Shown here piece after piece: positions 62,976 through 63,258 of a DNA stretch of 64,000 nt. Under the pieces are notes generated by a model. The model did no database searches. It was not told where the DNA came from and saw only the letters and a program-made list of their open reading frames with translations. Numbering within the stretch: position 1 is the first letter of the stretch; each line of letters opens with the position of its first letter. The position numbers and the translations under genes are program-made. This stretch comes from a virus. The DNA lies in IMG/VR virus record IMGVR_UViG_3300033233_000001, positions 124,001-188,000 of that record. One strand, written 5' to 3'.

Positions 62976-63258
62976 TCCTGGGGCTGGAATCGAACCAGCG
63001 ACCACTCGGTTACGTACCACTTCGGCTTTCGCCGCCCGCAGGCGCGGTTCGTGGTCTGGACTATCCCATCGTCCTCGACTTGCAGTCGGTCGGACGTCGC
63101 CCCTCTAGTCTCTACACCTTCCCCCGAGGGGGCTTGGCTCGGGATTGCCACGTCTCTTGCGACGAGGGTTCCCCGAGTTTGGGCGATTTTCACCGGCCGA
63201 TTACTCGGTCGGGCTGCCAACGGACAGCCGAGCGCTCTTCCATCTGAGCTACCCAGGA
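62976..63258 (-). tRNA. tRNA-Asn (GTT) split by a group I intron
   Basis: 5' exon 63258-63224 (35 nt, ends CTCGG-CTGT), 3' exon 63012-62976 (starts TAA-CCGAG). Acceptor TCCTGGG/CCCAGGA and anticodon stem CTCGG/CCGAG match; the joined loop is CTGTTAA, anticodon GTT. The T arm GCTGG-TTCGATT-CCAGC is normal. Confidence 0.9.
63013..63223 (-). mobile_element. Group I intron (211 nt) between tRNA positions 35 and 36
   Basis: 5' splice site follows U35; exon GGCTGT pairs with intron GGCAGCC, giving P1 with U-G at the site. The intron ends in G. Core signatures GCAATCCCGAGCCAAGC and GGTGTAGAGACTAGA (P3/P7 region) and GTCCAGACCACGAAC follow the tRNA-Leu-type group I core. No ORF inside; self-splicing by family. 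Confidence 0.88.

Follow-up and report, generated by a model that had tools for sequence, protein, structure and literature searches.

In bacteria, the group I introns of tRNA-Ile(CAU), tRNA-Arg(CCU) and tRNA-fMet(CAU) (Azoarcus, Agrobacterium, Synechocystis) sit after U36. Group I introns in tRNA genes have been listed for cyanobacteria, alpha- and beta-proteobacteria and plastids (tRNA review, PMC4033280), and all phage introns known up to 2014 lay in protein-coding genes, despite the many tRNA genes of phages (review, PMC3984707). The program tRNAscan-SE 2.0 was not built for group I tRNA introns; the fMet and Ile2 cases reported by its authors were detected with other methods (PMC8450103). 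'Group I introns' of 22-49 nt have also been claimed in other cyanobacterial tRNAs (PMC5733544); these are far too short for a group I core. The passages searched in the papers on huge phages, on Atu_ph07 and on archaeal group I introns contain no mention of phage tRNA introns, nor do those of two jumbo-phage overviews. Our searches of the open-licence literature, in which phrase searching can miss cases, brought up no previous description of a group I intron in either a phage tRNA or a tRNA-Asn.

The window analysed here, a stretch of 64,000 nucleotides, corresponds to G000:C1:124001-188000 of a 297,749-bp IMG/VR virus record. Positions 62976-63258 on the minus strand, exactly the coordinates given in the initial annotation, hold a complete pre-tRNA-Asn(GUU) gene whose anticodon is split by an insert. 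Read on the minus strand from 63258 to 62976, the gene consists of TCCTGGGTAGCTCAGATGGAAGAGCGCTCGGCTGT, a 211-nt insert and TAACCGAGTGGTCGCTGGTTCGATTCCAGCCCCAGGA. The 5' exon (63224-63258) comprises tRNA positions 1-35 and ends in CTCGG CTGU35, the intron occupies 63013-63223 with its terminal (omega) G at 63013, and the 3' exon (62976-63012) starts with U36 A37 A38 and does not encode CCA. ARAGORN recognizes the joined exons as tRNA-Asn(gtt), as had been claimed, and finds no tRNA in the unspliced gene when introns are disallowed. When introns are allowed, the program moves the cut by one base and calls a tRNA-Thr(ggt), a reading that we discarded, since at the shifted cut no U precedes the splice site. 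We placed the cut at U35^U36, inside the anticodon, because the intron begins with C and the alternative joins fail; this is the sole join that combines a 7-nt loop, a GUU anticodon, a U at the 5' splice site and an intron-final G, and the proposed placement after U35 is thus upheld. When the two tRNA-Asn halves were sought around a gap of 100-1800 nt, the window contained a single match, and 200 shuffled windows had none.

Apart from this interrupted gene, no tRNA-Asn turned up in the record of about 298 kb: two patterns for an intact tRNA-Asn returned no tRNA. All except one of the Rfam tRNAs of the record lie within the window, and the rest of the array serves 19 amino acids, to which asparagine adds the twentieth. 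The host of the intron is a jumbo phage; the label 'phage' rests on the virus-record classification, on Ro-like, RNA-ligase and other phage-family proteins and on distant jumbo-phage matches. Terminase and sheath homologues, sought in the record with three families, gave no match, and a 987-aa protein of the record had no phage match.

Several other features of this phage deserve mention. It carries more than 30 tRNAs, and near the array it encodes a Ro60-like protein with TROVE and vWA domains (50275-52161, minus strand); its identity to the Ro-like proteins found in actinophages and in Sinorhizobium phage Phosso is about 45%. The start of this ORF probably lies further downstream, because the long reading overlaps a predicted tRNA-Glu (52037-52112). 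No Y RNA was found at the gathering threshold, and where the 3' exon of the tRNA-Asn gene matched a Y RNA (YrlA; 15.2 bits, E 2.4), we took this as chance. An RNA ligase (PF09414; 12085-13116, minus strand) may be a tRNA-repair enzyme, and a TnpB/Cas12f-like protein (46288-47946, minus strand) has a TNB domain just below the Pfam cut-off and matches a PHROGs transposase. A tRNA-Thr called by ARAGORN at 13878-13962 on the plus strand, distant from the array and opposite to a long ORF, is probably a false call.

The insert has the architecture of a group I intron, with the P3-P8 and P4-P6 domains of the core and the P3/P7 pseudoknot; an energy fold, which is free of pseudoknots, yields P1, P2, P3, P4, P5, P6, P8 and P9. 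All elements lie on the minus strand. P1 (63213-63228) pairs the exon sequence GCUGU (63228-63224) with the intron guide sequence GCAGC (63217-63213) and places a U35.G pair at the 5' splice site; its CUGU/GCAG part is invariant in 16 introns. A possible P10 (63009-63221), read from the sequence only, would join UAAC of the 3' exon (63012-63009) to GUUG (63221-63218), and it is not kept in relatives. P2 (63193-63212) is closed by a GUAA loop of the GNRA type. P3 (63186-63181 with 63102-63097) is followed by P4 (63177-63171 with 63144-63138), seen in both fold and alignment and enclosing P5 (63167-63148), the outer part of which varies among relatives, and by P6 (63117-63137), which is placed by the RF00028 alignment and the covariation alignment. 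The guanosine-binding helix P7 pairs GACUA (63110-63106) with UAGUC (63063-63059) across a gap of 44 nt and surrounds P8 (63070-63096). P9 (63055-63051 with 63020-63016), also from fold and alignment, contains two inner hairpins, one of them with a GAAA loop. The intron is probably an IC3-like candidate, the kind usual in tRNAs. Its last nucleotide, 63013, is a G, as had been noted; this column is invariant in the alignment, where the parser itself demanded a G.

The general Rfam model RF00028 aligns to the full length of the intron with 36.4 bits (E 8.4e-8 in a 441-nt search). The initial annotation had named this model as a check, and its outcome is mixed: close relatives at the identical site pass the cut-off (52-89 bits), but the window intron itself stays below the gathering cut-off of 50 bits, which is a detection threshold and not a property of the RNA. 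A scan of the whole window at the gathering threshold accordingly listed no intron, since 36.4 bits fall short of 50. A covariance model built from 15 viral tRNA-Asn introns at the homologous site, with the window excluded, recovers the window intron with 139.5 bits (E 1.4e-34) as its sole match in the 64 kb. In the alignment of all 16 introns (the window and these 15), 91.4% of the cells are paired under the structure including the pseudoknot. Two-sided changes occur in 43 of the 69 pairs, as against a mean of 30.5 in shuffles, and none of 500 shuffles reached this number. Sliding the structure by one base brings pairing below 40%, a control that is partly built in, because the structure derives from the window's own fold; the two-sided changes, unlike the slide, are not built in by the use of that fold. 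Compensatory changes are found in P2 (7/7 pairs), P3 (6/6 pairs, 97.9% paired), P4, P8 (4/5 pairs) and P9. The five pairs of P7 are invariant in all 16 introns, as expected of the G site, and are for this reason beyond the reach of a covariation test. The proposal of a group I intron with a U-G-containing P1, a terminal G and recognizable P3/P7 core sequences is therefore well founded in the core helices and splice-site elements, the covariation and the leave-one-out score. We are highly confident that the sole tRNA-Asn(GUU) gene found in this jumbo phage carries a group I intron between U35 and U36.

This placement is not an isolated oddity. Scanning viral contigs for the conserved intron core, we obtained at least 119 stretches, of which a cloverleaf parser placed at least 36 in tRNAs (the window entering twice, as itself and as L003). 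With this parser, which accepts only introns that are preceded by a U and end in G, the intron follows the first U of the anticodon in at least 33 rows in all, the window and 32 viral ones. Among the matches listed, these comprise UAA anticodons interrupted after 34 (23 rows), GUU after 35 (six), CAU after 36 (two), CUU after 35 (one) and UCU after 34 (one). Position 34 had been cited for bacterial tRNA-Leu introns and has at least 23 viral cases here. The exception among the matches listed is the viral locus L076, with an intron after U33; the placement of L104 was a wrong parse, the locus being really a tRNA-Leu intron with an ORF. For tRNA-Asn, two patterns and the parser together identified 114 introns at 35/36 (the window, 21 other viral loci and 92 bacterial contigs), a number that speaks of recurrence at 35 and not of absence elsewhere, because CUGU was demanded before the intron. 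The tRNA-Asn site thus fits a first-anticodon-U rule, which predicts the locations of further tRNA introns.

The viral carriers include contigs of 361 kb (L028), 436 kb (L086) and 543 kb (L105), and the contig of the near relative L165 bears a terminase gene. Among the bacterial carriers are named Omnitrophota, Nitrospirota, Betaproteobacteria, Deltaproteobacteria, several Patescibacteria, Planctomycetes, a cyanobacterial MAG and Firmicutes, as well as an Acetothermia bacterium that appears as a row of the tree. Some of these could be misbinned phage DNA, as they are mostly MAG contigs. In one viral contig (L138, 4195-7963), five Pistol ribozyme matches lie among tRNA genes and a tRNA-Asn group I intron. 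The near-relative contigs L160 and L165 carry a PurZ-like gene of the 2-aminoadenylosuccinate synthetase family, which suggests phages with modified DNA, and L160 also encodes a tRNA nucleotidyltransferase and a GroEL fragment.

Searches by blastn with the window intron and its site relatives led to named phages. Introns in tRNA-Leu(UAA) are present in LR756501, a phage of 735,411 bp, in LR756511 (595,163 bp), where the intron contains an HNH ORF, and in Agrobacterium phage Atu_ph07. Gordonia phage Daredevil (NC_048021; L001) has an intron in tRNA-Lys UUU, at 34/35 by inspection. In these four phages, ARAGORN calls the intron-bearing tRNAs; in Klebsiella phage Muenster, an intron in a CAU tRNA was read from the sequence by eye. 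No intron or interrupted tRNA was marked in the existing annotation of the annotated regions examined, including that of Daredevil, which is also the nearest cultured-phage blastn match to the window intron (70.7% identity over 38% of the query).

In a tree of 217 rows, the window falls nearest to the viral tRNA-Asn introns L160, L165 and L168, and intron identity to these nearest relatives is 73% at best. Its side of the tree (SH-aLRT 99) holds nearly all viral tRNA introns, including those of viral tRNA-Leu. On the other side are the majority of the bacterial tRNA-Asn introns, together with the majority of the viral introns that lie outside parsed tRNAs. One of the latter, L004, is a further group I intron in this phage (G000:C1:216514-216802, minus strand; RF00028 23.2 bits), situated between ORFs in a protein-coding region; it is overlapped by a LAGLIDADG-like ORF (L004:1541-2146; Pfam LAGLIDADG_3, E 0.001, below the cut-off), and a further possible LAGLIDADG ORF, by motif only, lies at L004:3-662. 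On this second side, the stretch between the two strands of P7 is mostly longer and suggests the presence of P7.1/P7.2, known from IA introns, but the division is blurred by 28 of its 83 bacterial members, which are short. It is tempting to regard the tRNA-Asn 35/36 introns of phages and bacteria as one lineage, the interrupted gene having passed from host to phage or from phage to bacteria, and not as separate intron types that each reached this base, since they occupy the same base of the same gene and a clade uniting all tRNA-Asn introns is not rejected by an AU test (p 0.32). Against this, the free tree separates the bulk of the viral tRNA introns from the bulk of the bacterial tRNA-Asn introns, with the high support given above, and most of the second side has the longer P7-P7 stretch. 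We consider a single lineage possible but somewhat doubtful; the opposite notion of a clean two-lineage split between bacterial and phage tRNA-Asn introns is itself weakened by the AU test and the short-P7 bacterial members.

The window intron is probably a mobile element at a recurrent site, with the tRNA-Asn anticodon as its conserved target. It encodes no homing endonuclease, for which its 211 nt leave no room, and if it homes, as we infer from comparison with its relatives, an enzyme may act in trans. An HNH_3 endonuclease ORF of 197 aa (60451-61044, minus strand; PF13392, E 3.3e-9) lies within the tRNA array, some 2 kb away from the intron, and is, at a reasonable guess, a candidate for this role. 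It is not alike to the annotated HNH endonuclease that adjoins the tRNA-Asn of phage Muenster, to which the protein of the bacterial tRNA-Asn intron L222 is 58% identical over 80 residues. ORFs that are HNH-like by motif occur in three bacterial tRNA-Asn introns, L222, L228 and L278, where Pfam gives a sub-threshold HNH match for L228 and none for the other two, and HNH genes are found near the interrupted tRNA-Asn of L028 and L053. The viral tRNA-Asn 35/36 intron L126 encodes a PD-(D/E)XK nuclease (PDDEXK_5, E 2.6e-30), whose only solved relative, PDB 2ost, is presumably I-Ssp6803I from the Synechocystis tRNA-fMet intron.

The fold suggests how the window intron would splice itself out, in two steps as dictated by group I chemistry. 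In the folded precursor, the exon-end CUGU would pair with GCAG of the intron, and the pair at the cut would be a U.G wobble. A P7-bound guanosine would attack after U35, and the freed U35 would then attack after the terminal G at 63013, joining the exons into a normal tRNA-Asn and releasing the intron; protein would in principle be dispensable. Bacterial carriers bear on splicing at this site: 14 of 15 intron-bearing draft genomes, of unstated completeness, had no intact tRNA-Asn match to a single exact pattern judged by eye, while the intron model matches all 15. The remaining genome, G012, has one plausible intact tRNA-Asn on the same contig as its intron. Since a cell needs tRNA-Asn and 14 of the 15 genomes were without an intact copy in this search, introns at tRNA-Asn 35/36 are probably spliced in vivo. 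One may speculate that the intron is kept as a device, the broken anticodon hiding the phage pre-tRNA from host anticodon nucleases or delaying the tRNA to late infection. We regard this as very improbable; if true, tRNA introns of large phages would be counter-defence or timing devices and not tolerated parasites.

Could the intron instead be decayed or splicing-defective, and the phage tRNA-Asn a pseudogene? Its RF00028 score below the cut-off would agree with this, but decay would be expected to hit P3/P7 or the exon pairing first, and core helices and splice-site elements are all intact. The exons moreover form a perfect cloverleaf although the intron has diverged to at most 73% identity with its nearest relatives, and the gene supplies the sole amino acid absent from the rest of the array. 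Such decay is thus very unlikely. That the insert is not a group I intron at all, but is removed by a protein endonuclease at an archaeal/eukaryal bulge-helix-bulge or separates two adjacent half tRNAs, has almost no chance of being right: bulge-helix-bulge introns also occur in the anticodon loop, but they are short and mostly at 37/38 (PMC4033280), whereas this insert has a full, covarying group I core with a model match at 1e-34, and at its 35/36 junction, taken up by P1 and the group I fold, the motif was not found.

The preferred reading of a self-splicing group I intron places this locus in what is apparently a wide and unrecorded distribution. Phage tRNA genes, which have long been described as oddly free of group I introns, carry many (Asn, Leu, Lys, Arg and CAU). 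The carriers include phages with genomes in the range of 490 to 735 kb, as well as cultured phages, which are open to testing. As phages share the tRNA-Asn 35/36 site with chromosomes of several bacterial phyla, they may ferry tRNA introns between bacteria.

Among described systems, the group IC3 introns of cyanobacterial and plastid tRNA-Leu(UAA) resemble the window intron in being small, ORF-less and located in the anticodon loop, with a P1 formed from bases of the anticodon arm and a U.G at the cut; the window intron differs in lying in tRNA-Asn, at 35/36 and not at 34/35, and in a phage. The bacterial tRNA-Ile, tRNA-Arg and tRNA-fMet introns, compared by description, are likewise of group I and follow an anticodon U, but in other tRNAs and after U36 instead of U35; a relative of I-Ssp6803I, the endonuclease of the Synechocystis tRNA-fMet intron, resides inside the viral tRNA-Asn 35/36 intron L126. 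The introns of phage protein genes (nrd, DNA polymerase, terL and others) share with it the group I type and the phage setting and often come with HNH or LAGLIDADG genes, as does L004 of this phage with its LAGLIDADG-like ORF; the window intron differs from them in interrupting a tRNA gene. The Daredevil intron also interrupts a phage tRNA, that of tRNA-Lys UUU at 34/35. The kind of intron is therefore known, and its host gene, its position and the type of genome that carries it are new.
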